Position numbers and translations under genes: made by a program
Shown: positions 13,548 through 51,563 of the stretch, one piece after another
Position numbering within the stretch: the stretch's first letter is position 1
Layout: every line of letters begins with the position of its first letter
Assembly (NCBI GenBank): GCA_030601745.1
Contig: JAUWBI010000004.1
Location: forward strand, 1-64,000
Reading direction: 5' to 3'
DNA: 64,000 nt
DNA from: Phycisphaerae bacterium
GTDB lineage: Bacteria; Planctomycetota; Phycisphaerae; Sedimentisphaerales; Anaerobacaceae
The notes under the pieces: model-generated
What the model was told of the DNA's origin: nothing
Database searches by the model: none
The model's input: the letters and a program-made list of their open reading frames with translations, nothing else

Positions 13548-13564
13548 AAGATAGAGGCGAAAAA

Positions 13565-13994: not shown

Positions 13995-14049
13995 AGAAAA
14001 AAATTGAATAACGGGTTCGCCTTATAGCTAAAGGCGACGCAAGAACATT

Positions 14050-14094
14050 AAACGGCTGTATTGGGGCCAATACCTTCAGTATGGCCGTTTTTTG
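14050..14094 (+). terminator. rho-independent terminator before the second terminase half
   Basis: AAACGGC...GCCGTTTTTT with an inner GTA/TAT extension and a 6-T run. It would end the transcript of the inserted small genes 13 bases before the start of the nuclease half, so that half needs read-through or another arrangement. Confidence 0.6.
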
Positions 14095-14106
14095 TTGCCC
14101 GCAGAG

Positions 14107-17065: not shown

Positions 17066-17388
17066 TGCCATTATACGAATACAAATGTCCGGCTTGTGAG
17101 CATTACCAGGTAGAAATAAGACCTGTTTCAAAACGGGATATGCTGACCTTGTGTGAAAACTGCCGGTCTGTTACAAAAAAACTTATCTCTGCCCCGAACG
17201 TTATTACGGACGGCGATTTTGCTCTGACCGGAAAAATTGACCGCCGGCTCGGCGGCGGGCCGATTGAAGGCAGAAAAGATTATCAAAAAAGAGTGCAGGA
17301 AAAAGGTTTCAGGGAATTAAGCAATCGTGAACTGAAGGATTTAAGAGATGACGATTCAGAACGAAAAATGCCAACAGTTAATTTCTAA
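17065..17388 (+). CDS. FmdB-type zinc-ribbon protein
   Basis: 107 residues. 'MPLYEYKCPACEHYQVEI...LTLCENCRSVTKKLISAPNVI' is a clear FmdB/CxxC-CxxC-SSSS putative regulator zinc ribbon. Starts inside the portal stop (TAATG), so translationally coupled. Role in the phage unknown. Confidence 0.8.
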   Translation: MPLYEYKCPACEHYQVEIRPVSKRDMLTLCENCRSVTKKLISAPNVITDGDFALTGKIDRRLGGGPIEGRKDYQKRVQEKGFRELSNRELKDLRDDDSERKMPTVNF

Positions 17389-30682: not shown

Positions 30683-31594
30683 ATGGCTTATAATAGAAGT
30701 TGGCGTGATATATTTGGCGGTGAAGATGATTGGGGGCGCCCTACCGTAACAAAAAGAAGATTTGTTAGGTTTCCAAAAAGAGAACTCGACCCCTATGGCT
30801 ATAAGTATATGGGTATGAGAGGAGGCCCTGGCGGTGCTATCCCTTACTACGCTCAAGGCGAATGGGAAGAGGACGAGGAGCCGTATTATTCCCCTTACGA
30901 TATTCTTAATCAGATGAGAAGGCGCCTCGAATCCCAGCCAGTAAAATATATTACTGACCCCAAAACTGGCAAGGTTATGGCAGAAAAGTCAATGCCGAGA
31001 TTTGAATTGCCCGAAGAAATGGCAGGGATGTATCCGCATTTACAGAGATACTTTGGAGAAGGGAAAGACCTTACCGCTCGATGGGTATTACCTAAAGGTG
31101 CTCTGACCGGCCCGAAAATGATAACCCGACAAGCACCGGCGACAGACCCTATGAGACAGATGGGTTATCAGGCGGGAGTTAGCGGTTTAGGAACCAGCGT
31201 AAGTACGGTAAGTCCCCAGACTTTCTGGCCTGGCAGCTCTTTCAAAGTACCCTGGCGGCAGCCAGGAGCGGCCACTTATGCAGAGCGAGGATTAGGTGGG
31301 ATAAGCAGGGGACGCTTCGGTGCTATGGCGGAGCCGGTATTCGGTGCCACGATAGATTACACTACTGGCGAATGGCGTTTACCCCCCGCCGGCGGTGGAG
31401 TGAGGAGCCAGATGCGTTCACAACCTTACGGTCTGTTTGAAAAGAGATTCAAAACACCGCCTGGTGTTGGACAAATGCCACGTATCGGTGCTTATCAATA
31501 TCCCCGCTTCCAACCGTATCCAAGTATCGACCCTTATGATTTGTATCAGCAGAGACGAAGGCGCAAAAAGATGTATGAAGATGAGTATTATTAA
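30683..31594 (+). CDS. hypothetical late protein, Arg/Gly/Pro/Tyr-rich
   Basis: 303 residues. Low-complexity composition rich in Tyr, Pro, Gly, Arg ('KYMGMRGGPGGAIPYYAQGEWEEDEEPYYSPYDIL', 'QYPRFQPYPSIDPYDLYQQRRRRKK'). No domain recognised. Located just before the two large genes probably encoding ejected virion proteins, it may be an internal virion protein or assembly factor. Confidence 0.45.
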   Translation: MAYNRSWRDIFGGEDDWGRPTVTKRRFVRFPKRELDPYGYKYMGMRGGPGGAIPYYAQGEWEEDEEPYYSPYDILNQMRRRLESQPVKYITDPKTGKVMAEKSMPRFELPEEMAGMYPHLQRYFGEGKDLTARWVLPKGALTGPKMITRQAPATDPMRQMGYQAGVSGLGTSVSTVSPQTFWPGSSFKVPWRQPGAATYAERGLGGISRGRFGAMAEPVFGATIDYTTGEWRLPPAGGGVRSQMRSQPYGLFEKRFKTPPGVGQMPRIGAYQYPRFQPYPSIDPYDLYQQRRRRKKMYEDEYY

Positions 31595-31605
31595 AGGATA
31601 ACATT

Positions 31606-33144
31606 ATGAATGGTTTTTCAAGACGATGGTATTCGCCGCCCGACCTATTTGGCGATGCTCCCTTGAGGCGAATAAGAAGGCGTTTAATGAAACCGCCTGA
31701 CTTAACAAGAGCAGGACAACCGCCTATACTTGAAGCAGCCACGCCCACAGCACTTGCACCACGACCAGGAGAGGTGCCGACAAGAGTCGCACCGGAATTA
31801 GGCTATGAGGATTACCTTAAAAGATATAATATTAGAAATCCCGAAGACCCACGACACAGATATGATTATCGTGCTGCTTTTGAAGCAGGCATTACCCCAA
31901 CAAAATGGAGAGATTTGCCAGAAGCGGAAAGATTACAAGATTTAGAACAAATCCGTAAAGGGTTACGGGAACCTATACCAGAAGAAGGGTATATGTGGCC
32001 GGATGAATTTAAGGTAACACCTGATTTAACTTATGAAGATTACAAGGCACAACCGCCAAGTTTAAGATTTGCAGGTATTCAGCCAAGCGAGATGAGTCCC
32101 TACGAAATTGAGGAATACGCTGATGAAATGGCTGCACGAAGAAAAGCTGAAAAGACACAACGAATGCAGGAACTATACGAGCAAAGTAGGGCTGAAGGGA
32201 TGGTATTGCCAGGTGAGACCATTGACCTTGCGCCAACCTATCGATACACTGGAATGCCACGAACAAGACGAGAGGTTGGCAGGTCTATTGATTTGAGGAT
32301 GTTACGTCGAGGGCGTGCAACACCAGAGCAAGTCGCAGGTATAAGAGCAAGGCGCAGGGCGAGATTTACTCCTACCAAAGAGGCTTGGGAAAGGCGAGAA
32401 ACTACAATAGAAGGCGCTAAAATTGCTGATTGGTTGACGGGGCCGAAAGGTGCAATACCGCCAGACCTTACAAGACGTGAATATCCTGAACCGCCAAGTT
32501 TCGAGGAAGAAGTCGCTGGCCTTGAAAAAGTATTGCCGCCGAATTTGCGGGCAATCCGAGCAAGACAACAATATGCGATAGAACGTCCAGAAGCGCCCAC
32601 ATTGCCACGATACGAAACCACAGTAACCCGAAGGATGCCTGGGGGTGTAACGCTTACTCACAAACCGATTAGCGCACCTGAATTTCCTACTGAACTTGAA
32701 ATTGAGCAGGCAAAAGGGAGATTGGCAGCCGAGCAGGCGAGGAAGGCGTATTGGGAACGCCCAACAACTACGCTTTCGCCAATTATGAGAATGGTCGATG
32801 AAGGGCTTTTAACATTTGAAGAGGGAAAAGGCTTGGCAACAAAAGAAAAAGATGACGACCTCACGGAAAAAGACGTGATTAGCATAATGCACACTATCGA
32901 GAGAGCTTTGGCAGCAACCTATACTCCCTTAAACGAGCCATTAGAAGGCAAAGAATATGCGGAGCGCCGAAACTATTACGCTCAACAACTCGAAGTTTAT
33001 AGAAATCGTCTTGACCAAATCCGTGCAGGAAAAACTAAGCCCAACAGAGTAAAAGTAAAAGCCCCTGATGGAACGATAGGCACTTTGCCCTCAAGCCAGA
33101 TAGCAGAGGCCGTAAAAGCAGGCTATCAAGTAATTACAGATTGA
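31606..33144 (+). CDS. hypothetical internal virion protein
   Basis: 512 residues; AAAGGA before ATG. Highly charged, with repeated 'PPDLTR' (residues about 30 and 286) and 'MP.R...RS' motifs and predicted helices separated by Pro-rich linkers. The same 'PPxLTR/PELTR' style continues into the N-terminus of the next giant protein, suggesting co-assembly. No known domain. Confidence 0.45.
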   Translation: MNGFSRRWYSPPDLFGDAPLRRIRRRLMKPPDLTRAGQPPILEAATPTALAPRPGEVPTRVAPELGYEDYLKRYNIRNPEDPRHRYDYRAAFEAGITPTKWRDLPEAERLQDLEQIRKGLREPIPEEGYMWPDEFKVTPDLTYEDYKAQPPSLRFAGIQPSEMSPYEIEEYADEMAARRKAEKTQRMQELYEQSRAEGMVLPGETIDLAPTYRYTGMPRTRREVGRSIDLRMLRRGRATPEQVAGIRARRRARFTPTKEAWERRETTIEGAKIADWLTGPKGAIPPDLTRREYPEPPSFEEEVAGLEKVLPPNLRAIRARQQYAIERPEAPTLPRYETTVTRRMPGGVTLTHKPISAPEFPTELEIEQAKGRLAAEQARKAYWERPTTTLSPIMRMVDEGLLTFEEGKGLATKEKDDDLTEKDVISIMHTIERALAATYTPLNEPLEGKEYAERRNYYAQQLEVYRNRLDQIRAGKTKPNRVKVKAPDGTIGTLPSSQIAEAVKAGYQVITD

Positions 33145-33145
33145 A

Positions 33146-36100
33146 ATGGCAAGATTTGATTTTCAGCCAGAACGAAAGTTTGACTTCAGGCCGATTGAAA
33201 AAAAGTTTGCTTTCAGGCCAGAGCCGCCCGCAGTAACCCAGGTTATAGAAGCTCCAGAGCTTACCCGTATTGACCAACCAGCCCCCACAATAGCCCCAGA
33301 ACCGCCCAGGATGCCCCCTGCTGCGAGAGTTCCTACCGAAAGGCCCGTGATAGCTCCTGAATTGCCTCGCCCCGAATATATAACTACGCCAAGAGATATA
33401 AGACCGCCCGAAATCCCAGACCTTACTCGTATTGCCGAGCCGACCGTTAAGGCAAAACCGTTTAGTTTGTTCGGTAAGTCGTTCATACAACAACTTGCTG
33501 GCCGTCCGGCAATGATGTTGCGTGGTGCTCAAGTTTATACGCCAGGCAAAAGTCTTGGATTAGACCCCTTAATGCAGCAGGCAAGTTTTTATCTTGAATC
33601 GCAAAGAGACCCTGTAATAGCAAAGGAAATCGAGCAAGCTGCCAGAGGCAAACTCTGGCCGATAGGAGACGACCAGAAGTGGTGGAAGGTCGAAAAGAAA
33701 TACCTGCCTGAAACGATAAATGCTTGGGCTGCTAATGTGGGAGCCCAAGTCCCTATTATGCTCATCACGCAAGCGGGCCGAATGTTAGGAAAGGTCGTTG
33801 GTAAACCTGTTGGTGCTGCTGTTGGTGCGGCGGCAGCATTAGTTACCGGCGGCCCCGACCCGACAGACGTTGGAACTGCGCCTATTGTTGCCAAGATAAC
33901 AAGTGGGGTAATAAAGCATCTCGGCGGAGCTGTGCCTTTGGTGGCAATGGAAGCTGGTGGCTTTATGGACGAAGCGGAGAATCTTGCTATTGATAAAGAC
34001 ATCAGCGAAAAATATGCACGAATTTATGGACTCGGCAGCGGGACAATAGAGTACGCCCAATGGTTATTTGTTTTGGGTTCATATCGAAGGCTTGCCAGAC
34101 CAGCCCAGAAAACAATCGTCAAAAAGATACTGATTGAAATTGGTGGCGATGCCGTTGAAGGATTAGAGGAAATCTCGCAGGAAGGTCTGCAAAACAAGCT
34201 GCTTCAAAAAGCCGTTGCTGAAATGAAGCAACGGTATCCTGACTATACAGGCCAAGCCCCGAAAACGTGGGCGGGTTGGAAACGTGCCGGTGCGATTGGC
34301 GCAGGGACAGCGTTTATCACCCGCTTACCAGGGCATGGCCTTACAATGGCCGAGGGTAGATTAGCAAGGCGAAAAATCGTTGAATCCCAAATAGTACCAC
34401 CTGCCGCAGAAGTACCCGAAATAACGCCTGAGCCGCCCATTGCTGGCCCAAAACTCCCTGTGGTAGAACCAACAGAAGTAACAGAACCAATAGAGCCTGA
34501 ATTACAAGAATTATTAAAATCAAAACCAGCAAGCATAAACAAATTCCTGCCAAAAAGCGATACCCGAATAATAACAAAAGAAGGCGAATACACAAATGGT
34601 GTATGGCTTATAAAGAAAGAGTTTGTGCCACCCAAAGTCAAAGAAAGAATTGATGCAGAACCTTCTGGCAGGGAATTGTCGTCTAAAGATATATATCCCG
34701 AAGATGAAGGGAGTTTTTCAGTAGGTATCGTTGGAGTTGCAAACCTTGATTATAAACCTTCTTATGTTTTGCGTAATGCAGAAGGCGTAGAAATTGGAAT
34801 AGATAAAGATTTTTACGATTATCTCGATAAACATATCCCTAATTTCAGACTAACATTCAAAAAAGGAGATGCGCCAGCAGCTATATATTCAGGCCGCCAA
34901 AAAGCAGGTTTGATTATGCCCGTTACTATATCTGAACCAAAATATATTAAACCCTCTGAAGAACCACCCACAATAGCCGCCGAGCCGACCGCAGGCAAAA
35001 AATATGAAGGAAAAGCATACAGGGCCGAAACTGGTTTGGTTATCAAAGGAGAAACTGCTGCTGATGTTGTAAGATATGAGCAGGAGGACCTGGGAAATGA
35101 TTTAGGGGTCTCAGAAGAAAAAATTGCAGAATTAGAAAAGCGTCCTGAAAAGGATATTGTTTGGGTTGCCAGGGACAGGGAAACAGCAGCAAGATATGGC
35201 GAACCAGAAGAAGTAACGGATGCTGTTGTTGGTGGTGAAATAATCGCCGAAATTCCTGATGGTGTTTTAGTTCTCAAGCCCGCCGTTGAAAAAGCAGCAG
35301 AAGTGAAACCCAAATTCAAAGTCACCAGAGCACGTATTCCAATCACCAAAGAAGGAGTAGTGCCGGAAGTGATATCGGAAAAGAGATACACTGCCGAAGG
35401 CGAGGAAATCGAACCCGCCGAGCCTGCCGAAGAACTGTGGAAAATGACCAGGGAAGAATACGAAGCCACGCCTGACTTTCAAAGAATATACGGCAGAACG
35501 GAAGGCAAAAATCGAGAAGCTGCGCTTAGTGTCCACAAGATTGCGGTCGAAGATGCTTTAGCCAAAGGCGAACCCGTCCCCAGCCACGTTCTTGAAAGTT
35601 ACAAAACCGAGGAATGGGCACAAGAGGCCCTCGCCCCAGCCAAGCCAACTGCCGAAATAAAAGCCCCTGTAAGTGATGAGGTAATAAACTTGATAGAGGC
35701 AGGCTTCAAATTGAAAGATGGGCGTATTATCTCAACGGGCCACGTTCACGCTTTGCCTGAAAACATTTCTGTAGAGGATGTTGCAGAGGTTGGTTTCGTT
35801 CGCATTGACACAAATGAGTTTATGAGTAGAGAGGAAACAGAAAAACTTATTGGAACGAGCGATACCACAGAACTTATAAAATTAAAAGAAGCCATAGAGA
35901 AAGCCGAGCCGACTGTAGAGGGGCAGCTCACGAAAAAAGCCTTTGATGATTATTGGGCCGAAGTAGGAGATAAGCCGGAATTGTTAGAGGATGCCGTTTT
36001 AGAATATGTGGCCAACGCTAATCAAGAGTTCAAAGACCTTGAAGACAAGCTGATGGAGATAGAGGAAACTGACCCCGTAGGTCATACCGCCGAACACAAG

Positions 36101-39100
36101 AAAGTGATGGGCCAACTTGATAAAATCCGTGCGGATTTAGAGGCCAAAATCCGAGCCGTTGAGAAGGTTGCACCTGCGAGACCGATACCAAAAGGCATCA
36201 TAGTAAAGCCGCCCGCTGAAAAGCCTGGTGTCGGCACTGTTGATAACATCAATGTAATCGGCCTTGCGGACAGGTTTTCGGAACGGCTAAAGACTATAGA
36301 GGCACCGATTGACAACAGGCAGGTCAAGCAATGGGTGGCTGAGGAATTAGGTGTTTCGGAATCCGAGTTAAGGCCCGAAAAGGGTTACTCCCACAAGAGA
36401 GTACAGGAAGCGATGGAATTGGCCCTTGTAAGGGCAGCCAGGAGCATTGTCGAGGAGAATAGAGGACAGCCTGATGAAACCTTTAGACGTTTACAGCAAT
36501 TATACGAGCGTCAGCCCATCCTTGCAGCTCGAACAGGAATTTCAATCAAAAGGCAGGCATATTCCACGCCGGCACCATTGGCTTTCATAGCTAATGAGCT
36601 TGCACATATAACACCTGACACAATGATTTATGAGCCAACAGCCGGTACGGGTATGCTTACGATCGGTTCCGTTCCGAATATGACCGTTGTCAATGAACTT
36701 GACCCTACCAGAGCGGAAATATTACGTTCACAAGGCTATTACCAGGTCAGCCAAAAAGATGCACGAGCCATATCACCTAAAATCGAAAAGAGCTTTGATG
36801 CCGTCATAATGAATCCGCCTTTTGGAAAACACAAGACCGTTCCTTATGACAAATTCAAGCTATCTCACATTGAGCATATCATAGCCGCCGAGAATCTAAA
36901 AGCGATGAAAGATGAAGGCCGGGCGGTAATGATAATAGCGGCACCCAAGAAAATGGGTAGGTATTCAACCCCTGAATGGGTCTTTGGAAACTACATTTAC
37001 AGCCATTATAACGTTACAGGGGACTTTGAAGTAGCGGGGGATTTGTACCGCAGACAGGGAGCTGCGTGGCCCGTAAGGGTTATAGCAATTCACGGTCGAA
37101 AAAAATCTGAAAAATATGGCCCCAAAAAAGGAATTTTCCGTGCAAATACCTGGGAAGAAGCGTATAATAAGATGAAGGAGATTTTGGCAGATGAGCCGGA
37201 AATTATATATCCCGCCGCCAGAGAGAAGCCTGTCGGCCCTGAGGGTCTTAGGGGTCGAATTGAAAGGCGGCCCGCCGAAGAGTTGGAGCCGGTACGAGAA
37301 CCTGCTGCGGAGCCGATTGAACCGGCTGGCGAAAGACCGGCGGTCGCGCGCAGGCCTGGTGAACGAATTACTGAACGACGCCCTGCTGAACGAAGACCCA
37401 GGGGACGAGTTGTTAGAGTTCCTGCTGGCGAGCGAGAGGTACAGCCAGAACCATTTCGTTTGGCAAAGCCTGTTTTACCTGACCGCAAAGCCCCCTCAAA
37501 AGAGAAAGCTCCTGGCGAACGCCCGGAAAGACCCGCAGTTCGCAAAGCTGAACGAGAACCAGAAGTTGAACGAGTTGAGAAGCGTAAGCCTGTGGGAGTG
37601 GTGGGACCTTCTGCGTTAGGCAAACTTCAAATCCCATACAAACCATCCTCAAAAGCACCAGCGCCAAATGAGAACATTCCTACTTATCTTGAACCTCACG
37701 TTACTGCTGCTCTTGAAAATCTCAAACAAAATGTCGGCGATATAGATGAATATGTCAGGGAGCAATTACAGTATGAATCAAACGAGAGGATGTGGGAGCA
37801 TCTATCGGCCTCACAAGTAGATTCTATTGCATTAGCTTTGGATAAAATTGATAAGCGTTCTGCTATGGTCGTAGGCCATCAGACCGGAGTGGGAAAAGGC
37901 AGGGTTGCCGCCGGTATTGTTAGGCGAGAAATCATTAACGGGCGAAAACCGATATTCTTCACTTCCGGTAAACATTTATTTACTGATTTCTTTCGAGACT
38001 TATTTGATGTCGGATTAACCGAAGACCAAATCAAGCCACTGATGATGAACGCTGACGTTGATATTAAAGACCAGCAAAATAGAGTGATAGTTAAACAACA
38101 CGGCAACCGAGCTGTTGCGGACCAGGCAATTCACAAGGCAATACAAACAAAAGACTATAATTTAGTCTTATCCACCTATCACCAGATTAACACCGAAACG
38201 CGCAAGCAGCGAGCGCAGCTTGCAACTCTTATGCCTGGCAATTTACTTATTCTTGACGAATCACACAACGCCGCCGGCGAGAGTCAAACCGGTGAATATC
38301 TCAAAGAGATACTGATTCCTCATTCAGCGGGAGTTTTATTCAGTTCTGCCACTTACGCAAAGACGCCCAAAACTATGGCTTTATATGCCCGGACGGGACT
38401 TCTGGATGCCTTTGATGGCGATACTGAAAATATGCTCGATGCTGTTCAGACCGGTGGTGAGCCGTATCAAGAAGTTATTGCCGCTGCTCTGGCCCGCGCC
38501 AATTCCTATATACGGACTGAACTGGATTTTTCCGGTATCAAATATGAAACGACTATTGACGCACGACATCTTGATAGAGACGCGGAAAGAGCAGACAGGG
38601 TTACATCTGTTTTAAGAGATATAATTGCATTTGACAATTACTTCGCAAAAGTGATTGTTGACCCTGTAAAGAAGGAAGCGAAGGCACAAGCCAAAAGACG
38701 CAGGGGGCCGGCTATGACTGTCGGCCATACGAACTTTGCCGCAGTCAGCCATAATGCCATCAAACAGATGCTACTTACACTCAAAATAGACGAAACCATA
38801 GAACAGGCAAAACAAGCACTACAGGCCGGCCAGCGCCCCATCATAGCCTTAGAGAATACAATGGGTTCTTTTCTGAAACGCTATGTTGAACAGCACGGAC
38901 TTAACGCCGGTGATATTATTAAGGATTTCGATTATCGTGAAGTCCTGCTCAATATGCTCCGCAACACCCTATCTTACACCATTGTACACGGCTGGGGCGA
39001 TATTGAAGTTATCAAGGTTCCGCTTGAAGAATTGCCATTGGATGCTCAAGACGCATTTCATAGGGCTGAAAACGATATAAAAGAAATGGAGCTGGACTTG

Positions 39101-42100
39101 CCGGGTTCCCCCATTGACGAGATTATCAGCCGACTTGAGGCCGAAGGCCACAAAGTCGGAGAAATAACAGGTCGTGAAATCCGACTAATCAAAAAAGGGA
39201 AAAACGAATACGAATTAGCCCATCGACCTGCAAAAGAGCGCGACAAAACCAGTATAGTATATGATTACAACAATGGCTCCACCGAAGTTCTCGTTGTCAA
39301 TGTCGCAGGCGCCGAGGGAATGAGTGCTCACGCCTCAAGGGATTTCAAAAATCAAGAGAAGCGGGTAATGATAGTTGCTCAACCTGCGGCAGATATTAAC
39401 AAATTCGTCCAGATTCTCGGACGCATCAATCGCAAAGGCCAGGTAATTGACCCTGAATATAAAATCCTGATGACCGCACTTCCGTCTGAGATAAGACCTG
39501 CGGCTATTCTTGAGAACAAGATGCGCTCGCTTAATGCAAATACTTCTGCAAAAACAAAGGGTGCCTATCAGCAGAAAGAAATACCGGATATTCTCAATTT
39601 GTATGGTGAGTACATCACGGCCCAGTATATCATTCAGAACCCCGATATTCTCAAACAGATGGGATTAGACCTTGAAATTAGTAAATATGCCAATGCGATG
39701 TCCGAAGGCAATTATCACGGCCCCTGGAATGAAGATAAGGTGGCAAGACGTTTTACGGGCAGACTTGCCTTGTTATCCACAGACCAGCAGCAGGAATTTT
39801 ATGAGTGGGCCGAGCCGACATTCAATAGTCTAATTGACCTTCTTAATAAAACAGACCAAAACGAGCTTGTCAGCGCCGACAAGGACTACAAAGCCGAATT
39901 GGTAGATTCCAAGACTATATTCGTAGGTGAGCCAGGCAATATCTTTCAAGAGCCGGCCACTTTGGACAAGATGAGCACAGTTCTCGAAGGCCGGCCAATG
40001 ACTACTGTTGAGATTAAAGATGAGGTCCAGCAGGTAGTTGAGGCCGCTAATTTATCAACTCCAAGTGCTTATATGGAGTATATGAGGACGAGAATTGATA
40101 CCGCCTGGGGAGAATATCAAGCAGCTCGTAAGCGCAAGGGCAAAAAGGTACGACAAAGTTCTGTCAATGCCCAGGAGAAAGGGAAAGATATGCTGCGTTA
40201 TCTCAAATTGTCCTCTGTCCGCGCCGATGGCGAGGGTAATCCTTTTGTCCTTTTGGAAATCATAGATTCTTTCGGCAAGAAGGAATACGCAATCAATCCA
40301 GCGGCGCCGAGTAATATTCGGGTTAGAATTGCAATTCCGCATCCTGCCCGGACGGCTGTTATCTCTTTGGGGCAATTTCATAATTCACAGTCTTTTTACG
40401 GCAATCTTGACAAATACTTTAATATTCCCGCTGACCAAAAAGAGGAGCGCTACATAGCCAATGGTAACATCATAGCCGCAATGGGTGTTCTGGTGGGTGA
40501 TAGTGAAAAAGGTAAACAAGTCCGGCCAAAGGTTATCAATTACACAATGGCCGATGGAAGCAGAAGACAGGGCTTGTTGTTACCAAAGACTTATGACCCT
40601 GCTTACGACCTTCCGTCTTCGGTTAATATGATACCCGAAGCTGCGGCGGCTTATCTAATGGAACAACCAACGGGAACAGCACATCTGAAAATGGGCGAAG
40701 CGCGAATAATCAAAGTTGCAACTAACAGCGTTTATATTGAAGTGCCAAAATCCAAAGCTCGTGGTTTGAAATATTTTGGCGATACAGGTCTTAAAGAATT
40801 GGTCGGCGAATTTGAGACCTGGCGACAGGCAATGAGGGCCGATTTCAGTGCTGACATACTTCTTGATGTTTTGAACTATCTGAAAAGCAGGGGCAATGCG
40901 ATAAAAAGCGATGATGCTGCTCCTGAAACGGCGAGGGAATATAATAACGCTCACCGTGATAGAGGCGAAGCGGTAGGATTCGCTGAGCCGGCCAAAGAAA
41001 TAAAAATAGCACTGCAGCGCGGAGTAGCCAGGCCTGCGGATATTTCACAAAGACAAATAATTCAATTTTTGAGCAAAAGTTTTGGTATTCCCATTAGAGG
41101 AATAGCGACTTTCAGAAAGAAAAAGCCTGGCTGGTATAATCAGCGGACTCGCGGCATACGATTGAAAAATGTCAATAGTCTCAGAGTGGCTGCACACGAA
41201 GTTGGACATCATATTGACATATATTTCAATAACAAAGCCAGTGTAAAGATGTCACACGCCTGGTACGGCCTGGGTGCCGAGCTCGTCAGATTGGGTAAAG
41301 CAGTTTATGGAAAGAAAAGACCCAAAGAAGGTTATAAGATGGAAGGCTACGCCGAGTTTGTATTCGGCTGGCTTACCGGAGCCATTGACCTTAAAAAAGA
41401 AGCGCCCCAGATGCTTCAATTTTTTGAGAAAAGCTATCTGAAAGACAATGCCGAGATAGCGGATATTCTCCACACCGCCCGTGATATGATAGACAAATGG
41501 AAAGAGCAGGGCGCCGAGGCCAGGTTCGATTCGCAGATAGGCCAGAAATTAAGACCTGAAAAGAATTGGAAAGAAAGGTTTAGTCTGTGGTTCCAGACGG
41601 CGTTTACCGATGTATCAGCGCCTATACAGAGAGCTTTACACGAGAACATTCCTGCAAGAAGCATTTGGTTCGGCAGTAAAGACCCTGGATTTCTATATCA
41701 ATTCTTCGCGCAGACCGAAGGTGCGAGGGCGATAACGATGGTGGAAGAACACACCATAGACCTTTGGGGCAATCCTACCGGAAAGTCTCTGCGTGCAGTT
41801 CTAAAACCAGTAGCACACCAGATAAAGGATTTTGTTCGCTATGTCGTAGCGGCCAGGGCGATAAATCTAAATGCCAGAGAAATCGAATCGGGATTTGATA
41901 TAGAAGATGCTGTCTATATCTTCAAGAAATACGATTCCCCACAATGGAGAAAAGCAGCTCACGAACTGACCGAGTGGAACCATAGGATTCTGGATTATCT
42001 TGTTCAGGCCGGCGGCCTCGAAGAAGAAGCTGCAAAACAGATGAGAGAGCTTAATCCTATTTATGTCCCCTTTTTGCGGAGCTTTGCGCCCGGGGAGAAA

Positions 42101-44107
42101 CGAAGAACGCCGAGAGGCGTTGGTCGGGGACTAATAAGACGGGGCAAAGGCGTCTATAAAATCACGGGTTCCGGCAGGGGTATTGACGACCCGATAGAAT
42201 CTATGATAACCCAAACCCGCCGAATGATTTCGATAGCCCATAAATCACTTATAGCCCGTGCTTTTGTAGAAGTTGAGCAGAAAACCCCTGGTCTTTCAGG
42301 TTTAATAGAAAGAGTCCCGCCGCCAATGAAGGCCACTACATTTAATGCTTCACAACTCAAAAAACAGTTAATTGATTTGGGTATTGATGTCGAACCAGGC
42401 GAACTTGATGATGCGATGTTTACTGTCTTTAGCAATTCGCCTATCTTTTTAGGCAAAGAACACATCATTTCAATAATCGGCGTGGATGGTAAGAGACAGT
42501 GGTTTGAAATTGCCCCTGAGCTTTACAGGGTTCTTGAATCTCTTGACCAGTTCCAGTTGCCGAAAGCCTTCAATCTGATACTTGGCAAAGCCTGTAGATT
42601 GTGTCGTTTAGGTGCTACTGGTATTCACGCCGCCTTCGGCCTGGTCCGAAATCCTATAAGAGATATTATGGATACCGTAGTAAAGGCCAGATATGCCAGG
42701 GGGCCAGCGGCTTTTGTAAAAGGAGTAGCCAAAGACCTTTCAAATACCGGGCTTGCAAAAGCATTAGGAATAGAGCCAAATAAAGCGGCAGAGAGATTCA
42801 CTGATATCGGCGGTCAGATTTCAGGATATTTAGGACAAGATAGAACTTCCATACAGCATTTAAGAGGCTCGGCACTTAGCAACACGGTTGGAGAACATAC
42901 TATTGAAACAGTCAAACATCCTATTATTGTCTTGCGAAAGCTCTTTGGAATACCGGAGTCGGGATTGAGGATTGAGGAATTTGAGCGGGCATTAAAGGAC
43001 TGGATGGAAAAACATCAGCCACAGGGCGGCGAACCATCACCGGATGCTATCGTGTATGCTTTTGCGATGGCGTCAGACCAGACCATCAATTATCGCCGGG
43101 CTGGTCTCTATGGTAGATGGCTCAACGGAATGATTCCTTTCTGGAACGCCAATGCGCAAGACCCATCGAAAGTCTATCGGACTTTTACTGGTGATAGAGC
43201 AAAGCAAGCTGCTTTGTGGGGTCTTGCTGCTCTGACTTTACCTGCGATCGGAATATGGTGGTTGAACAAAGATGAGGAATGGTGGAAGGAATTACCGCCC
43301 TGGGAGAAGGCGAATAATATCCATATTCCCATCTTTAAGCGGGCCAAACAAATACCGATTCTTGGACGAGTGATTACAAAATACAAACAGGGCGAGGAAG
43401 TTGATTACATTTTCCGTATTCCTGTTCCGTTTTTGGTGGGCCACATCTTTCAGAGTATGCCGGTTACGATTTTGGATGCCCTTTATAATTTAGACCCCCA
43501 AAAAATTAGTGATTTTCTCGGTGAAGTTTATAACGCCGATGTAAAACCTCTGTTCGATTGGCCCGCAGCGATAGGCCCATATCTTGACTTGCGAAGCAAT
43601 AAGGATTGGGCGGGCCGAGCGATAATTCCCCCGTCAGTTGAAGGAAAGTTGCCAGAAGACCAGTATAAACATTACACTACCGAGTTTTGCAAAGCCATAG
43701 GCAAAATATTCAACGTTTCGCCAGCGCAGATAGAGTATGCACTTAACTCTTATTCGGGAGGTCTCTATCGCCGACCCGGGCGCATAGCCGGAATCATTAC
43801 CAAAGCCCCAGAAGAAAGACAACCTGCCGACTGGCCTGTAATCGGGACTTTATTTGTTCGTGACCCATTTGCACCGAAAGAATCCATCCAAAGATTTTAC
43901 GAAGAAAAAGAGCGTCTCAACAGGATGTATCAATCGGGCAAAATCGTAGCGGGAAGTGAACTCGGCAGAAAAAGAAAAAGGTATAACTATATCAGCACAA
44001 AATATCTGTCCCTGTATTGGAAAAGGCTACAAGAGGCAAAATTGATTTCAGAACGCAAGCGGATTTATGGAAAAATTGGAGAGTTGATTAAGAAGAGCAC
44101 CTCATAG
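33146..44107 (+). CDS. giant polyvalent protein: methylase, helicase, metallopeptidase
   Basis: 3653 residues. Pro-rich start; Ala/Gly-rich, membrane-active-looking helices (about 110-420). An N6-adenine methylase-like domain follows (about 1140-1290; SAM motif 'YEPTAGTGM' at 1162, NPPF at 1223). After a Pro/Glu/Arg linker (about 1370-1490) comes a Strawberry-notch/DarB-like SF2 helicase (about 1540-2140; 'GHQTGVGKGR' at 1575, 'LILDESHN' at 1704, 'LGRINRKGQ' at 2091). A zinc peptidase motif HEVGH is at 2684. A C-terminal stretch with 'MIPFWNANAQDPSKVYRTF' near 3327 resembles the LPD38 domain of polyvalent proteins. Families suggest co-injection with phage DNA for antirestriction, as with P1 DarB. 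Substrate effects are inference. Confidence 0.85.
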   Translation: MARFDFQPERKFDFRPIEKKFAFRPEPPAVTQVIEAPELTRIDQPAPTIAPEPPRMPPAARVPTERPVIAPELPRPEYITTPRDIRPPEIPDLTRIAEPTVKAKPFSLFGKSFIQQLAGRPAMMLRGAQVYTPGKSLGLDPLMQQASFYLESQRDPVIAKEIEQAARGKLWPIGDDQKWWKVEKKYLPETINAWAANVGAQVPIMLITQAGRMLGKVVGKPVGAAVGAAAALVTGGPDPTDVGTAPIVAKITSGVIKHLGGAVPLVAMEAGGFMDEAENLAIDKDISEKYARIYGLGSGTIEYAQWLFVLGSYRRLARPAQKTIVKKILIEIGGDAVEGLEEISQEGLQNKLLQKAVAEMKQRYPDYTGQAPKTWAGWKRAGAIGAGTAFITRLPGHGLTMAEGRLARRKIVESQIVPPAAEVPEITPEPPIAGPKLPVVEPTEVTEPIEPELQELLKSKPASINKFLPKSDTRIITKEGEYTNGVWLIKKEFVPPKVKERIDAEPSGRELSSKDIYPEDEGSFSVGIVGVANLDYKPSYVLRNAEGVEIGIDKDFYDYLDKHIPNFRLTFKKGDAPAAIYSGRQKAGLIMPVTISEPKYIKPSEEPPTIAAEPTAGKKYEGKAYRAETGLVIKGETAADVVRYEQEDLGNDLGVSEEKIAELEKRPEKDIVWVARDRETAARYGEPEEVTDAVVGGEIIAEIPDGVLVLKPAVEKAAEVKPKFKVTRARIPITKEGVVPEVISEKRYTAEGEEIEPAEPAEELWKMTREEYEATPDFQRIYGRTEGKNREAALSVHKIAVEDALAKGEPVPSHVLESYKTEEWAQEALAPAKPTAEIKAPVSDEVINLIEAGFKLKDGRIISTGHVHALPENISVEDVAEVGFVRIDTNEFMSREETEKLIGTSDTTELIKLKEAIEKAEPTVEGQLTKKAFDDYWAEVGDKPELLEDAVLEYVANANQEFKDLEDKLMEIEETDPVGHTAEHKKVMGQLDKIRADLEAKIRAVEKVAPARPIPKGIIVKPPAEKPGVGTVDNINVIGLADRFSERLKTIEAPIDNRQVKQWVAEELGVSESELRPEKGYSHKRVQEAMELALVRAARSIVEENRGQPDETFRRLQQLYERQPILAARTGISIKRQAYSTPAPLAFIANELAHITPDTMIYEPTAGTGMLTIGSVPNMTVVNELDPTRAEILRSQGYYQVSQKDARAISPKIEKSFDAVIMNPPFGKHKTVPYDKFKLSHIEHIIAAENLKAMKDEGRAVMIIAAPKKMGRYSTPEWVFGNYIYSHYNVTGDFEVAGDLYRRQGAAWPVRVIAIHGRKKSEKYGPKKGIFRANTWEEAYNKMKEILADEPEIIYPAAREKPVGPEGLRGRIERRPAEELEPVREPAAEPIEPAGERPAVARRPGERITERRPAERRPRGRVVRVPAGEREVQPEPFRLAKPVLPDRKAPSKEKAPGERPERPAVRKAEREPEVERVEKRKPVGVVGPSALGKLQIPYKPSSKAPAPNENIPTYLEPHVTAALENLKQNVGDIDEYVREQLQYESNERMWEHLSASQVDSIALALDKIDKRSAMVVGHQTGVGKGRVAAGIVRREIINGRKPIFFTSGKHLFTDFFRDLFDVGLTEDQIKPLMMNADVDIKDQQNRVIVKQHGNRAVADQAIHKAIQTKDYNLVLSTYHQINTETRKQRAQLATLMPGNLLILDESHNAAGESQTGEYLKEILIPHSAGVLFSSATYAKTPKTMALYARTGLLDAFDGDTENMLDAVQTGGEPYQEVIAAALARANSYIRTELDFSGIKYETTIDARHLDRDAERADRVTSVLRDIIAFDNYFAKVIVDPVKKEAKAQAKRRRGPAMTVGHTNFAAVSHNAIKQMLLTLKIDETIEQAKQALQAGQRPIIALENTMGSFLKRYVEQHGLNAGDIIKDFDYREVLLNMLRNTLSYTIVHGWGDIEVIKVPLEELPLDAQDAFHRAENDIKEMELDLPGSPIDEIISRLEAEGHKVGEITGREIRLIKKGKNEYELAHRPAKERDKTSIVYDYNNGSTEVLVVNVAGAEGMSAHASRDFKNQEKRVMIVAQPAADINKFVQILGRINRKGQVIDPEYKILMTALPSEIRPAAILENKMRSLNANTSAKTKGAYQQKEIPDILNLYGEYITAQYIIQNPDILKQMGLDLEISKYANAMSEGNYHGPWNEDKVARRFTGRLALLSTDQQQEFYEWAEPTFNSLIDLLNKTDQNELVSADKDYKAELVDSKTIFVGEPGNIFQEPATLDKMSTVLEGRPMTTVEIKDEVQQVVEAANLSTPSAYMEYMRTRIDTAWGEYQAARKRKGKKVRQSSVNAQEKGKDMLRYLKLSSVRADGEGNPFVLLEIIDSFGKKEYAINPAAPSNIRVRIAIPHPARTAVISLGQFHNSQSFYGNLDKYFNIPADQKEERYIANGNIIAAMGVLVGDSEKGKQVRPKVINYTMADGSRRQGLLLPKTYDPAYDLPSSVNMIPEAAAAYLMEQPTGTAHLKMGEARIIKVATNSVYIEVPKSKARGLKYFGDTGLKELVGEFETWRQAMRADFSADILLDVLNYLKSRGNAIKSDDAAPETAREYNNAHRDRGEAVGFAEPAKEIKIALQRGVARPADISQRQIIQFLSKSFGIPIRGIATFRKKKPGWYNQRTRGIRLKNVNSLRVAAHEVGHHIDIYFNNKASVKMSHAWYGLGAELVRLGKAVYGKKRPKEGYKMEGYAEFVFGWLTGAIDLKKEAPQMLQFFEKSYLKDNAEIADILHTARDMIDKWKEQGAEARFDSQIGQKLRPEKNWKERFSLWFQTAFTDVSAPIQRALHENIPARSIWFGSKDPGFLYQFFAQTEGARAITMVEEHTIDLWGNPTGKSLRAVLKPVAHQIKDFVRYVVAARAINLNAREIESGFDIEDAVYIFKKYDSPQWRKAAHELTEWNHRILDYLVQAGGLEEEAAKQMRELNPIYVPFLRSFAPGEKRRTPRGVGRGLIRRGKGVYKITGSGRGIDDPIESMITQTRRMISIAHKSLIARAFVEVEQKTPGLSGLIERVPPPMKATTFNASQLKKQLIDLGIDVEPGELDDAMFTVFSNSPIFLGKEHIISIIGVDGKRQWFEIAPELYRVLESLDQFQLPKAFNLILGKACRLCRLGATGIHAAFGLVRNPIRDIMDTVVKARYARGPAAFVKGVAKDLSNTGLAKALGIEPNKAAERFTDIGGQISGYLGQDRTSIQHLRGSALSNTVGEHTIETVKHPIIVLRKLFGIPESGLRIEEFERALKDWMEKHQPQGGEPSPDAIVYAFAMASDQTINYRRAGLYGRWLNGMIPFWNANAQDPSKVYRTFTGDRAKQAALWGLAALTLPAIGIWWLNKDEEWWKELPPWEKANNIHIPIFKRAKQIPILGRVITKYKQGEEVDYIFRIPVPFLVGHIFQSMPVTILDALYNLDPQKISDFLGEVYNADVKPLFDWPAAIGPYLDLRSNKDWAGRAIIPPSVEGKLPEDQYKHYTTEFCKAIGKIFNVSPAQIEYALNSYSGGLYRRPGRIAGIITKAPEERQPADWPVIGTLFVRDPFAPKESIQRFYEEKERLNRMYQSGKIVAGSELGRKRKRYNYISTKYLSLYWKRLQEAKLISERKRIYGKIGELIKKSTS

Positions 44108-44719: not shown

Positions 44720-45364
44720 ATGAAAGGTGCAACCATATCAATAATTATCTGTATGTTGGCTCTTTCCGTACCGCCGGCTGAAGCAGCACTGATAACAATA
44801 AAGATTGAAGCTGAAATAGATTCTGTCAACGACCCGTACAATCTTCTGGAAGGCCAAATCAACCCCGGCGACATCATAATCGGCGCATACACCTACGAAT
44901 CTACAACGCCGGATTCAAGTCCATCATATCCCACTGTAGGACGATATGAACAGTCTGCCACTCTCTGCGGTATATCTGTAGTGATAGCCCCGCCCCAAAC
45001 AAAACTGATATTTTTCAGGACGAATCCTGCGAATGTTGAGTTCCTTGTGGGTATTATTAACGACGGTACGTCGGGCGGTTTGCAAGATGGCTACTGGTTG
45101 ATAAGCCATAACAACCTACCTCTTTTCAATGGTACTTCGGTTGACTACATTTCTTGGGGACTTAGAGACTACTCTGCCACTGCCCTGTCAAGTATAGAGC
45201 TTCCCACAACCGCTCCGGTTCTGGAGGACTGGCAAGAAAATATTTTTATCATTGGAGGACATAGAACCTTCTGGATTCGGGCACATATGACTTCTGCCGT
45301 TCCGGAACCAGCAACGATGTTGTTGTTTGGCTTAGGTGGTTTATTTCTCAGAAAGCGGAGCTAA
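44720..45364 (+). CDS. PEP-CTERM secreted protein carried by the phage
   Basis: 214 residues; AAAGGAG before ATG. Signal peptide (SIIICMLALSVPPAEAA), a beta-rich body ('TIKIEAEIDSVNDPYN', 'PGDIIIGAYTYES'), and the C-terminal sorting signal 'VPEPATMLLFGLGGLFLRKRS': PEP motif, hydrophobic helix, Arg-rich end. Host exosortase should process and anchor it, so this is a host-type surface protein expressed from the prophage's own promoter. The middle resembles common PEP-CTERM bodies of unknown function. Confidence 0.85.
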   Translation: MKGATISIIICMLALSVPPAEAALITIKIEAEIDSVNDPYNLLEGQINPGDIIIGAYTYESTTPDSSPSYPTVGRYEQSATLCGISVVIAPPQTKLIFFRTNPANVEFLVGIINDGTSGGLQDGYWLISHNNLPLFNGTSVDYISWGLRDYSATALSSIELPTTAPVLEDWQENIFIIGGHRTFWIRAHMTSAVPEPATMLLFGLGGLFLRKRS

Positions 45365-45402
45365 AATATTTCACTCAAGATTTTGGTTAAGGAGGAACAA
45401 AG

Positions 45403-48336
45403 ATGTCACCAAACAAACGAATTCTTATTCTTGTATCACTCGTTATACTTGCCATCAACATCTCTGCCACAGCCGACTGGAAGGAAGACGCAAGAGCGAT
45501 AGACATCTCCGGCGGAGAAAACCATACGCTTGTCCTTACCCAGAACAAATGGCCCTGGGCCTGTGGTTCCAACGTCTCTTACCAGCTCGGCATTGGTGAT
45601 GATGCAAACGACCAATGGACACTTGTTCGAGTTCACGGGCCCAATGACGTCAACTTCCTTGAGAATATCAACGACATTGACGCTGGCTGGACACACTCAC
45701 TCGCCCTGGATGTAAACGGCTTTGTCTGGGCCTGGGGTAGAAATGTTGAAGGCCAGCTTGGAGACAACCAGAAATCGAGTACCCAACAATCTGCCACACC
45801 TGTGCAGGTTCACGATGGCGGTATGAATACCCCATCAGGCTATCTCGAAAATATCATTGTCATCTCTGCGGGCAGGAGCGGATTACATTCCTTAGCTGTT
45901 GATGCCAATAACTTTGTCTGGGCCTGGGGTTATAACTACAATGGGCAGCTCGGCAACGGTGAAAGTGGCATCTGGACCAATAAACCTGCACCTGTGAAGG
46001 TTCGCGGCGGCGAGATGGGGACAACCTTTCTCGAAAACATCATTGCCGTTTCCGCTGGTGAGAACCAATCTATGGCACTGGATGTAAATGGATTCGTCTG
46101 GACCTGGGGCAGTAACCACTGGCCAGCAGACTACGGCGACTACCCGGGAGGAACCGGCAAACTCGGTAATGGCCTGACGGAGGACACCAATACTCCCGTC
46201 CAGGTTCTGAAAGGCCAGCAGCAAAGCAGTTCAGATTATCTGGAAAATATAGTTGCTGTCAACGCCGGCTGGGACCATTGTATGGCTCTGGAGAAGTATG
46301 ACCCCTGTCTTCCCTGGGAGCCGAATTATGACCCCAATTATGGCCTTGGCTATGTTTATACCTGGGGCAACAACGGACAATGCTACGATTCTGACGGCGG
46401 CAGACTCGGAAATGGTACAATGACCAACAGTAATACACCGGTATTTGTTCTTTCCGGTCAGCAGGACCCCAATAATCCAGACTCTTATCTTAAAGGAATT
46501 ATTGCGGTCTCGGCGGGCGAAGGCCATAGCCTTGCTTTGGACCTTAATGGCACCGTCTGGGCCTGGGGTGATAACAAATACGGCCAACTCGGTAATGACA
46601 CAAATGACCCGTGTACCACTGCCGTAGCAGTTGTCGGCCTTAATGGTGAAGGTTACCTTGAAAACATCATTGCTATTTCCGCAGGATTCTGGCATTCGCT
46701 CGCTATCGATGTCGATGGCACTATATGGACCTGGGGCAAAGGTGATTATGGCCGGCTCGGCCTGGGAAATGACGCTAATAGCAATACACCTCACCCGATA
46801 CGTGTCGTTTACAATTTCACACAGCACACCTTTTATTTCGGAATACAAACGGCGATTGACAATGCTAATAATGGCGAAGTTATTGTAGCTTCGCTCGGCA
46901 CCTATTATGAAAACATCGACTTTCTTGACAAAAGCATAACCGTTAGAAGCACCGACCCGGATAATTGGGACGTGGTGGCCAAAACAATCATCGATGGCTC
47001 AAATAACGATTCAAATGTGGTAACATTTGACGACAACTCCGGCTCGACACTGGCCGGATTCACCATTACAAACGGCTATGACGGTGGCATATACTTTAGA
47101 AATCAGTCCTCGGCCGATATCACAAATTGTGAGATTCTCAACAATGACGGCAGCGGAATATATTGCTGGGACAACTCCGACCCGAACATAATTAACTGCA
47201 ACATTGAGGCAAATAATGATGGTGGGATTTGGTGTGACAACTCCCATCCGAACATAACCAATTGTATTTTCAGTGGTAATTCAGCTTCACACGCCGGAGG
47301 GATATATAATGCATATTCCGACCCGAATGTAACTAACTGCACTTTCACTGGCAATACCGCCGATGGGGGGTACGGCGGCGGGATGCTAAACTACCAATCT
47401 TCCCCGACAGTGACTAACTGCATATTCAGCGGGAACTCAGCGGAATGGGGTGGTGGGATGCAAAACCTTACCGAATCTTCCCCGACAGTGATTAACTGCT
47501 CCTTCAGCGGGAACTCAGCCGGTTACGGCGGAGGGATGCACAACGAGCAATCTTCCCCGACGATAACAAACTGCATCTTCTGGGACAACGATGCCGTTAG
47601 AGACGGTAACGAGATATATAACTGGGGGGATTCTGACCCGAACTTCAGCTACTGCGATATAGAAGATTCCAACGGCAGCGGAGATAATTGGCACCTAAAG
47701 CTCGGAATAGATGGCGGCGAAAATATCGACGAAGACCCGCTCTTTTATGACCCGAATGACCCTAATGATTATCATCTTGGTCCAAACTCGCCCTGTATCG
47801 ACGCAGGAACGAATACACCCATCGGCGGCTTGCCCACGACAGACATTGACGGCGAAGACCGAGTGATAGACGGCGACGGCGATGGAAACAGTATTGTCGA
47901 TATGGGTGCCGATGAGTATGATTATAGAGATGCCGATTTCAACAATGACGGCACAGTCAACTTCATTGATTACGCCATATTTGCTAATGCCTGGCAAACC
48001 GACAATCCTGATTTCAGCCTGGATGACGATAATGATGTTGATATGAACGACCTTTCTCTCTTTGTGGAAGACTGGCTCTGGATAGCTGGCTGGACAAAAA
48101 CTTTCGCCGCCGGTTACGGCCAAAGTATGAGCCAGGGTTTCGGTCTTATGGAAGCCCTTTACCAGGCTGCGCCGGCCGAACAACAGCCAACCCAGATTAA
48201 ACCGCTTGATATTAAAGAGATAATAAAGCGGCTTGAGGAAATCTGGCTCGACCCTGAGGTGCAAGAGGTAATAGATGAGGACAAGTGGCTGAAATTTATG
48301 AAATCACTAAAGAGGAACAAATATAAAATCGGTTAG
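45403..48336 (+). CDS. secreted RCC1-repeat, beta-helix and dockerin-like protein
   Basis: 977 residues; AAGGAGG before ATG; signal peptide. Residues about 30-470 hold RCC1/ATS1-type propeller repeats with the unit 'IxAGxxHSLALDxNGxVWAWGxNxxGQLGxG'. Residues about 475-800 are a right-handed beta-helix with 'SSPTVTNCIFSGNSAxxGGGM' coils and the 'CIDAGTNTPIGGLPTTDIDGEDRVIDG' cap. At about 842-905, 'ADFNNDGTVNFIDYAIFANAW' and 'DDDNDVDMNDLSLFVEDWLW' make a dockerin-like calcium pair. It is 38 bases after the PEP-CTERM gene and shares its promoter. It looks like a host extracellular protein, not a virion part. Confidence 0.85.
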   Translation: MSPNKRILILVSLVILAINISATADWKEDARAIDISGGENHTLVLTQNKWPWACGSNVSYQLGIGDDANDQWTLVRVHGPNDVNFLENINDIDAGWTHSLALDVNGFVWAWGRNVEGQLGDNQKSSTQQSATPVQVHDGGMNTPSGYLENIIVISAGRSGLHSLAVDANNFVWAWGYNYNGQLGNGESGIWTNKPAPVKVRGGEMGTTFLENIIAVSAGENQSMALDVNGFVWTWGSNHWPADYGDYPGGTGKLGNGLTEDTNTPVQVLKGQQQSSSDYLENIVAVNAGWDHCMALEKYDPCLPWEPNYDPNYGLGYVYTWGNNGQCYDSDGGRLGNGTMTNSNTPVFVLSGQQDPNNPDSYLKGIIAVSAGEGHSLALDLNGTVWAWGDNKYGQLGNDTNDPCTTAVAVVGLNGEGYLENIIAISAGFWHSLAIDVDGTIWTWGKGDYGRLGLGNDANSNTPHPIRVVYNFTQHTFYFGIQTAIDNANNGEVIVASLGTYYENIDFLDKSITVRSTDPDNWDVVAKTIIDGSNNDSNVVTFDDNSGSTLAGFTITNGYDGGIYFRNQSSADITNCEILNNDGSGIYCWDNSDPNIINCNIEANNDGGIWCDNSHPNITNCIFSGNSASHAGGIYNAYSDPNVTNCTFTGNTADGGYGGGMLNYQSSPTVTNCIFSGNSAEWGGGMQNLTESSPTVINCSFSGNSAGYGGGMHNEQSSPTITNCIFWDNDAVRDGNEIYNWGDSDPNFSYCDIEDSNGSGDNWHLKLGIDGGENIDEDPLFYDPNDPNDYHLGPNSPCIDAGTNTPIGGLPTTDIDGEDRVIDGDGDGNSIVDMGADEYDYRDADFNNDGTVNFIDYAIFANAWQTDNPDFSLDDDNDVDMNDLSLFVEDWLWIAGWTKTFAAGYGQSMSQGFGLMEALYQAAPAEQQPTQIKPLDIKEIIKRLEEIWLDPEVQEVIDEDKWLKFMKSLKRNKYKIG

Positions 48337-50030: not shown

Positions 50031-51563
50031 ATGAGAGTTTACAAACCGAGCTACACAAAACCCTTGCCGGAGAAGGCAAAGATTTCCTCCCGCAAGGGTA
50101 AACGATTCGCAAAGTTCAAGGATGCAAAAGGCCACACAGCCGAAGCACGTCTAACGCAGGCGGGCGATAAGATTCTCTGCGAGACCGTGCACTGGCATAT
50201 CGGCTTCGAGGACAACCGAAGTATTCGTAGACAGCTAAAAGCGTTCACCAATGAGCAGGCAACGAAACGTCTGGCCGATAGAATCCAGCAGCTTTTGAAC
50301 TGCAAGGCGAACAACCTGACACCTGATACAGGATTGCAGAAATTTCTTGAGCAGATACCCGCTACGATACGGGATGAGCTTATCAGCTTTGGGTTGCTGG
50401 ACGGGACGGCGGCGGGACGAACCCTTGCCGAGCGCATTGAGGATTTTCGGGACTACCTGACAAAGAAGGAACGGAACCCTAAATATATCAGGGGAACCAT
50501 ATCGGGCATAAAGCATTTATTCGCCGACTGTGAATTTGAAAGTTGGAGCGATATAAACGCCGATAGGTTAAAAGCACACCTGGACGAATTGAGGGACAGG
50601 GGGGACGGGATAAGTAAGCGAACCTATAACAGCAAGCTGAAAGCGGCGAAACATTTTTGCCACTGGCAGGCAAAGCAATTACGCACAACGTCTTCGATAG
50701 ATTTTATTGAGGGATTAGATAACGAGGGCACAGACAGGCGGCACGAACGCAGGGCGGCTACGCCTGACGAGATACGCAGACTGTTAGAGGTTACGGCTGC
50801 GGGGCCGGAGCGTTACGGAATGAGCGGCAGGGAACGCAGCTTGTTATATCGGTTTGCTGTCGAGACGGGATTTAGGGCCGGAGAAATTAGCACTTTAACA
50901 ACGGGCTGTTTCGACTTTGACAATCTGACCGTAACCGTTAAGGCCGGTTACTCGAAGCACAGACAAGAGGACGTCCAGGCGATAAGGCCGGAATTGGCAG
51001 CGATGTTAAAAGAGCATTGTCGGGGCAAGCTGCCGACAGTAAAAGTATTCGGCGGCTCTTTTAAGCAGTTGACCAACAAGGCGGCGGATATGTTAAAACT
51101 TGACCTTGCGGATGCGGGGATACCGTATATCGAGAATGACAGGATATTCGACTTTCACGCTTTCCGCCACACTTTCGTTACCAGCTTGCGTAATGTATCG
51201 AGCAGGACGGCCCAGGCGTTAGCCAGACACAAAAGCTCCGCTATGACCGATAGATACACCCATATCGAGTTACACGATGAGAGGACGGCTCTGGCCGACC
51301 TGCCGGATTACGGTGCGCCGAGCAGGGAAAGTCAAAGGGCCACAGGGACGGACGATAAAATCTTGTCGAAATCTTGTTTTCAGGATGCACACACACGGAC
51401 ACAAGCGGAAACTGGCGGACAGAAAACCGCTTTAGCGACACAAAAAACGCCGTTGGGGGCTGGTAACAAGGGGGCTGATAGGATTGGCAGTCTGCTTCTT
51501 TTCGGCGACCGCCGTCGCGGCTGCACTGGCCCCGCCCCTCGGAGGGGCTGGGCTGGCAGCTGA
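50031..51563 (+). CDS. tyrosine-type integrase, C-terminus swapped by integration
   Basis: 510 residues as it stands. A SAM-like core-binding domain (about 135-230) precedes the catalytic domain with the tyrosine-recombinase set: Arg in 'VETGFRAGEI', Lys near 'KAGYSKHRQ', HxxR in 'FHAFRHTFV', His in 'LARHKSS', Tyr in 'MTDRYTH'. Residues 1-489 are phage-encoded. The last 21 (LFGDRRRGCTG...) are read from host DNA beyond the core at 51483-51498. In the excised circle the frame continues into 6498-6676 and gives 548 residues with the typical 'W..L...R.AI..MV' end. Confidence 0.93.
   Translation: MRVYKPSYTKPLPEKAKISSRKGKRFAKFKDAKGHTAEARLTQAGDKILCETVHWHIGFEDNRSIRRQLKAFTNEQATKRLADRIQQLLNCKANNLTPDTGLQKFLEQIPATIRDELISFGLLDGTAAGRTLAERIEDFRDYLTKKERNPKYIRGTISGIKHLFADCEFESWSDINADRLKAHLDELRDRGDGISKRTYNSKLKAAKHFCHWQAKQLRTTSSIDFIEGLDNEGTDRRHERRAATPDEIRRLLEVTAAGPERYGMSGRERSLLYRFAVETGFRAGEISTLTTGCFDFDNLTVTVKAGYSKHRQEDVQAIRPELAAMLKEHCRGKLPTVKVFGGSFKQLTNKAADMLKLDLADAGIPYIENDRIFDFHAFRHTFVTSLRNVSSRTAQALARHKSSAMTDRYTHIELHDERTALADLPDYGAPSRESQRATGTDDKILSKSCFQDAHTRTQAETGGQKTALATQKTPLGAGNKGADRIGSLLLFGDRRRGCTGPAPRRGWAGS

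Follow-up and report, generated by a model that had tools for sequence, protein, structure and literature searches.

Phage polyvalent proteins, described by Iyer et al. in 2017, join several unrelated enzymatic domains with phage-type LPD domains in one chain, and a few of them carry Strawberry-notch-type helicases (PMC5512222). In P1, a myovirus, DarB has a methylase followed by a superfamily 2 helicase, a pair for which DNA protection has been proposed. P1 DarB is located in the head and is believed to enter the cell, and its N-terminal 30 residues send cargo to the capsid (PMC9024508); this is the only experimentally mapped N-terminal loading signal that we found for a DarB-type protein. 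The DarB-like gp69 of Burkholderia phage JC1 (4,515 aa, 22% of the genome) was identified by mass spectrometry in CsCl-purified virions, with 51 unique peptides and a score second only to that of the major capsid protein (PMC9144972). Phage DEV ejects a 3,398-aa RNA polymerase with two partner ejection proteins (PMC10925440). Two further giants bear directly on the present locus: gp01 of the Vibrio phage VvAW1, a 3,640-aa protein named 'DarB-like antirestriction', and gp3 of the Bacteroides phage BS-TP4, which has 5,391 aa.

The protein studied here is a member of this polyvalent, DarB-like class. It is encoded in the window, the first 64 kb of a contig from a draft genome of 3.45 Mb in 123 contigs, by a single open reading frame that runs from ATG to stop without interruption (3,653 codons, 33146-44107, +). 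A profile HMM search placed AAA_34, Helicase_C_4 and LPD38 all well above the Pfam cut-offs. Three unrelated enzymatic domains (methylase, helicase and zincin) and a phage-type LPD domain (LPD38, E 8.5e-29) share one chain. The first-pass annotation had named an adenine methylase, a Strawberry-notch helicase, an HEVGH peptidase and an LPD38-like end, all of which we found, and also membrane-active helices, which we did not. In the N-terminal third, every 19-residue window falls short of the hydrophobicity usual for a transmembrane helix, and the top-scoring one (aa 217, 1.46) is equalled by 52% of shuffles. The strongest window of the chain (aa 3355-3373, 1.64) lies just before LPD38.

The N6-adenine-type DNA methyltransferase domain (36479-37093, +) has the features of EcoKI/TaqI-type adenine methylases: a TP cap (STP), motif I (EPTAGTG, aa 1163) and NPP[FY] (NPPF, aa 1223), conserved in 73-74 of 74 relatives. 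It falls below the Pfam cut-offs; aa 1129-1315 match three PHROG DNA-methyltransferase families, and STP, EPT.G.G and NPPFGK are invariant in an alignment with BS-TP4 gp3 and an Acinetobacter phage protein. C-terminal to it in the same chain, the order of the DarB-like pair, is the Strawberry-notch-type helicase. Its ATPase half (AAA_34, 3e-23, aa 1551-1803; 37796-38554, +) has GVGKGR at aa 1581, DESH at aa 1704 and SAT at aa 1734, and its C-terminal half (Helicase_C_4, 1e-23, aa 1989-2230; 39110-39835, +) has GRINRKGQ at aa 2092, so that the superfamily 2 motifs (Walker A, DESH, SAT and motif VI) are all present. Of 74 non-identical full-length relatives, all retain NPP[FYW], 73 motif I, 72 Walker A, 71 DExH and 70 motif VI. 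Catalytic residues are thus kept in 70-74 of the 74 methylase-helicase homologues, as they are in nearly all of the zincin homologues. Scans for the methylase-helicase part matched 83 viral stretches and 40 from bacterial genomes, most of these genomes being Bacteroidota.

The resemblance to P1 DarB lies in this pair. P1 DarB differs in having an LPD36-type N-terminus (GxGG), a helicase of another family (SWI2/SNF2) and no N-terminal repeat, and LPD38 was not reported for it in the literature searched. LPD36 normally lies N-terminal to the methylase in DarB-like proteins; Pfam scans gave no match to it here and GxG[GAS] was not seen by eye, while the region N-terminal to the methylase (aa 1020-1110) is conserved in relatives. 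JC1 gp69 shares the C-terminal LPD38 (pfam18857) with the present protein, but has a HepA/SNF2-type helicase and an N-terminal lytic transglycosylase (PMC9144972). BS-TP4 gp3 has the same methylase-Strawberry-notch order (31% identity over about 1,290 aa) and a C-terminal LPD38, but it stands at the start of the structural genes, adjoining the portal gene, and no HExxH was found in it.

A single-sequence viral scan gave no close relatives; alignment-based scans found them, the direct homologues being mostly metagenomic. The two closest, both from IMG/VR, are 64-76% identical over about 2,300-2,600 aa: L017 is 76% identical from aa 1029, and L059 is 64% identical from aa 1353 and 47% from aa 927. 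Both have the methylase, the helicase, the zincin and the LPD38-type C-terminal module. Their N-terminal 570-860 residues, in contrast, are unrelated to those of the giant and to each other, and begin with other repeats. The set of activities, first described as unusually rich, turns out to be a recurrent combination, since 14 of the 60 complete methylase-Strawberry-notch giants retrieved also have the HExxH zincin motif and the C-terminal module. Richer chains are known: BS-TP4 gp3 adds ParB-like and pyrophosphatase domains, and Iyer et al. reported up to 15 domains in one chain (PMC5512222).

The zincin metallopeptidase domain (41063-41458, +) has HEVGH at aa 2684 and EGYAE, with the downstream glutamate ligand, at aa 2733. 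These motifs are nearly invariant (at least 90% conserved in 57 homologues) and align with those of Vibrio phages VvAW1 and 1.211.A. An AlphaFold2 model of aa 2640-3602 had a pLDDT of 84 and a pTM of 0.83, and its first 132 residues match zincin peptidase domains, the best at Z 7.0 and an rmsd of 3.2 over 119 residues. A zincin fold in phage polyvalent proteins had already been assigned from sequence profiles by Iyer et al. (PMC5512222). Beyond the zincin part the model matches only predicted viral proteins, 87 of them at E < 0.001 and many of these annotated as LPD38 or polyvalent proteins. A Foldseek comparison of the C-terminal module with the PDB gave no match at E < 0.001, to a solved ejection protein or otherwise, and sequence searches found no relatives of solved structure. 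This conserved module (41777-43951, +), which contains LPD38 (PF18857, 8.5e-29, aa 3377-3549; 43274-43792, +), is shared with podophage giants, and at least 592 viral contigs carry it. LPD38 is rare in our Planctomycetota sample (3 of 392 genomes). The C-terminal 950 or so residues are homologous to VvAW1 and Vibrio 1.211.A, with HExxH aligned.

The peptidase might be offensive, cutting host proteins after injection, as the first-pass annotation suggested. The best solved match to its fold, at Z about 7 and above unrelated entries, is a protein-cutting metallopeptidase domain, and the antirestriction protein ArdC also scores, at Z 4.5. Fold similarity does not, however, give the substrate, and we found no specific support for host proteins as targets. 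The zincin is tied to the C-terminal structural module even in giants too short to hold the methylase and helicase, which suits processing or assembly better, and the main proposal for polyvalent peptidases is that they process their own polyprotein (PMC5512222). An attack on host proteins therefore seems doubtful to us, and self-cleavage at least as likely.

The gene lies in a prophage, with bacterial genes to its left (ThuA-like, sugar hydrolase) and right (glycosyl hydrolase 116, isocitrate dehydrogenase type, LpxK) and, between them, a terminase, an SU10-type adaptor, unassigned structural genes and an integrase. If the prophage spans about 7 to about 51.5 kb, both ends being approximate, the earlier estimate of a quarter for the giant's share of the phage is roughly correct. 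An exact 16-base direct repeat lies close to both presumed ends (6482-6497, inside the ThuA-like gene, and 51483-51498, at the 3' end of the integrase gene). Its copies may be attachment sites or a chance match; the attachment-site search gave nothing beyond this one 16-bp repeat, which chance could explain. The early prophage region holds a TGAGGGCACAC-type repeat array (8567-8742) with spacings of 21 and 33 bases, and within the structural module are genes for an FmdB-like zinc-ribbon protein and a family 2 glycosyltransferase (17065-18772). Just downstream of the giant (44720-48336), two proteins have apparent signal peptides, one PEP-CTERM-like and the other made up of 977 aa with RCC1 repeats; these are possibly cargo genes of the prophage.

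The terminase large subunit is in two pieces with PHROG matches (12446-15108, comprising 12446-13144 and 14092-15108, +). The approximately 950 bases between them hold small open reading frames, three of which follow a repeated AAGATAGAGGCGAAAAA leader. An intron, an insertion or decay could each account for the split; a search for an intron in the gap gave no Rfam match. Given the split terminase, the prophage may be a defective one, and the giant gene could be a passenger in a decaying element, with no current function. The draft state of the genome and the lack of a close copy in the phylum sample would fit such decay. On the other hand, the 10.96-kb frame is intact with all of its catalytic motifs, and the 76%-identical relative keeps the same motifs in an independent viral contig, so that we consider a functionless passenger very unlikely.

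Late-gene context is present around the giant. The order is terminase, SU10-type head-tail adaptor (PF24175, E 1e-7; 24457-25191, +), which anchors the structural module, then two candidate ejection partners of 303 aa (30683-31594, +) and 512 aa (31606-33144, +), and then the giant, the last gene of a podovirus-like structural block; a tyrosine recombinase-type phage integrase (PF00589; 50031-51563, +) lies downstream. As neither candidate partner matched an ejection-protein family (the 512-aa protein matched no family at all), they are proposed as members of an ejection trio solely through their position. The VvAW1 genes run from terminase through portal, scaffold, head, stabilisation and fibre to a DNA-ejection protein (PHROG 598), which a single small gene separates from the 3,640-aa giant. 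VvAW1 gp01 is thus nearly the length of the present protein, similarly placed at the end of the structural block, and has a homologous zincin and LPD38 module in which HExxH and EG[FY]AE align. It differs in its SNF2-type helicase and Eco57I-type methylase, and the identity of the C-terminal module is only about 23%. In one Pelagibacter and one Manatee Spring podovirus, which belong to other groups, 'internal virion protein B' is followed by one intervening gene and then an LPD38-type protein.

From this gene order and the relatives we infer that the giant is the large member of an ejection set. Its main task there could be mechanical, with the Strawberry-notch translocase pulling phage DNA into the cell and methylation secondary. 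The giant RNA polymerase ejected by DEV, with its two partner proteins, has been proposed to pull in the genome (PMC10925440), and here a comparable position in the gene order is taken by a translocase whose motifs are intact. Yet the methylase motifs are conserved as well as those of the helicase, and a helicase is not recognisable in several LPD38 proteins, giant or shorter, so that pulling cannot be the general role. We regard a genome-ejection motor as quite unlikely to be the primary function.

We think it probable instead that the giant is packaged and ejected, that its methylase and translocase act on the entering DNA, and that its zincin frees parts of the chain. It would be made late and packaged into the virion as the terminal member of a podovirus-like ejection set, and would exit the particle together with the DNA or before it. 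The C-terminal zincin and LPD38 module would be the phage-structural part that places the protein in the virion or ejection apparatus, with the methylase and Strawberry-notch translocase as its cargo. Methylation, perhaps with some help in drawing the DNA in, would spare the entering DNA from host restriction, the zincin would most likely free chain parts through self-cleavage, and the threefold motif at the N-terminus might be a docking signal for assembly or ejection. The gene position, the relatives and the published precedents are consistent with entry alongside the DNA and with its protection by the methylase-helicase pair. The rival readings overlap with this one, and our confidence in each should not be expected to add to a whole.

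The N-terminal third is less easily assigned. A Gly/Ala-rich, probably helical region without a clear transmembrane helix (aa ~110-420; 33473-34405, +) matched no family. By eye, aa ~590-760 (34913-35425, +) look ADP-ribosyltransferase-like, a likeness that is unconfirmed: the region matched no family, had no homologue among the fetched open reading frames and gave a low-confidence single-sequence model (pLDDT 44). Nearer the start, a proline-rich linker with two P[DE]LTR motifs, at aa 37 and 91 (33254-33430, +), resembles the N-terminus of the upstream 512-aa protein. The local alignment score of 68 was reached by one of 2000 shuffles, and the two proteins were the top pair in a survey of N-termini from the same locus. 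The common P[DE]LTR...QP segments occupy 31606-31845 in the upstream gene, where PPDLTR is itself repeated. A single motif common to all cargo of a phage was in general not borne out, with 0.25% of other genes' N-termini resembling the giant's at z>5 against a background of 0.09%; the clearest exception is the upstream gene in this phage.

At the extreme N-terminus (aa 3-25; 33152-33220, +) a short motif occurs three times, as RFDFQP, KFDFRP and KFAFRP. The self-repeat is weak by score (z 3.3), although none of 200 shuffles reached it, and the codons differ between copies. The close relatives, with their unrelated N-termini, each open with a short motif of their own in two or three copies: FDFQPERK/FDFRPIEKK/FAFRP here, TLEELAGVK/SLEELAGVK in L017 and IRLSDIPE/IRLSDIPEEP in L059. 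The pattern was spotted by eye before it was tested. Among 75 giants with mutually dissimilar N-termini, 41% had a repeat at z>5 in the first 80 residues; the corresponding rates were 0.7% for 750 internal windows and 1.3% for 792 other genes from these loci (Fisher p about 1e-27). Repeats at z>3 were found in 52% of windows starting at residue 1, 7% of those starting at residue 41 and none starting at residue 81. A second set of 23 giants, drawn afterwards from further scans, gave 30% at z>3, where internal windows gave 2.7% and other genes 2.0% (p 7e-6). These figures are for first-ATG starts in phages that are phylogenetically non-independent, and both sets come from one homology network.

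The repeats differ by lineage (L114, L132, L124, L094, L046, L185, L099 and others), as in SPYSFLNEP x3, IDLSDLPPA x3 and NPFDQFD x2. Recent DNA duplication does not account for most of them, as identical residues are encoded by different codons. Codon identity among these residues is 0.50, barely above the 0.42 expected from codon usage, and most repeats thus appear to be old and kept by selection on the protein; L124, L132 and L071 are exceptions whose repeats look recent. DdrA, a head protein of the P1 Dar system (ddrA, L215 27542-27907), has a duplicated start motif, AIELMDLSDKLDALM / GMELLDISDEIDQIM, with z 7.7, a value reached by none of 1000 shuffles. The repeat is not, however, the P1 DarB signal, as P1 DarB has none (z -0.9). 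With a repeat in DdrA and none in DarB, a role in docking for assembly or ejection is a guess. The literature searched, which was limited in extent, held no description of a repeat at the start of phage giants, and the feature is apparently previously undescribed.

It may be that the class of phage giant ejection proteins is marked, at the extreme N-terminus, by a lineage-specific short motif in two or three copies that is under selection and is swapped along with the N-terminal domains while the duplication itself persists, forming a multivalent loading or threading signal. We put this forward tentatively, giving it somewhat less than an even chance.

The giant adds a prophage example, from a phylum in which LPD38 is rare, to a known strategy in which phages inject enzymes that protect their DNA. 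The class of protein was already known; the repeat at the start of the giants is the new part, and as the more useful outcome it is the one that deserves to be followed up. Should the repeat serve as a signal for loading or ejection, it would help to account for the sorting of giant multi-enzyme chains into particles and for the free exchange of their N-termini, and it would offer a handle for loading foreign cargo into virions.
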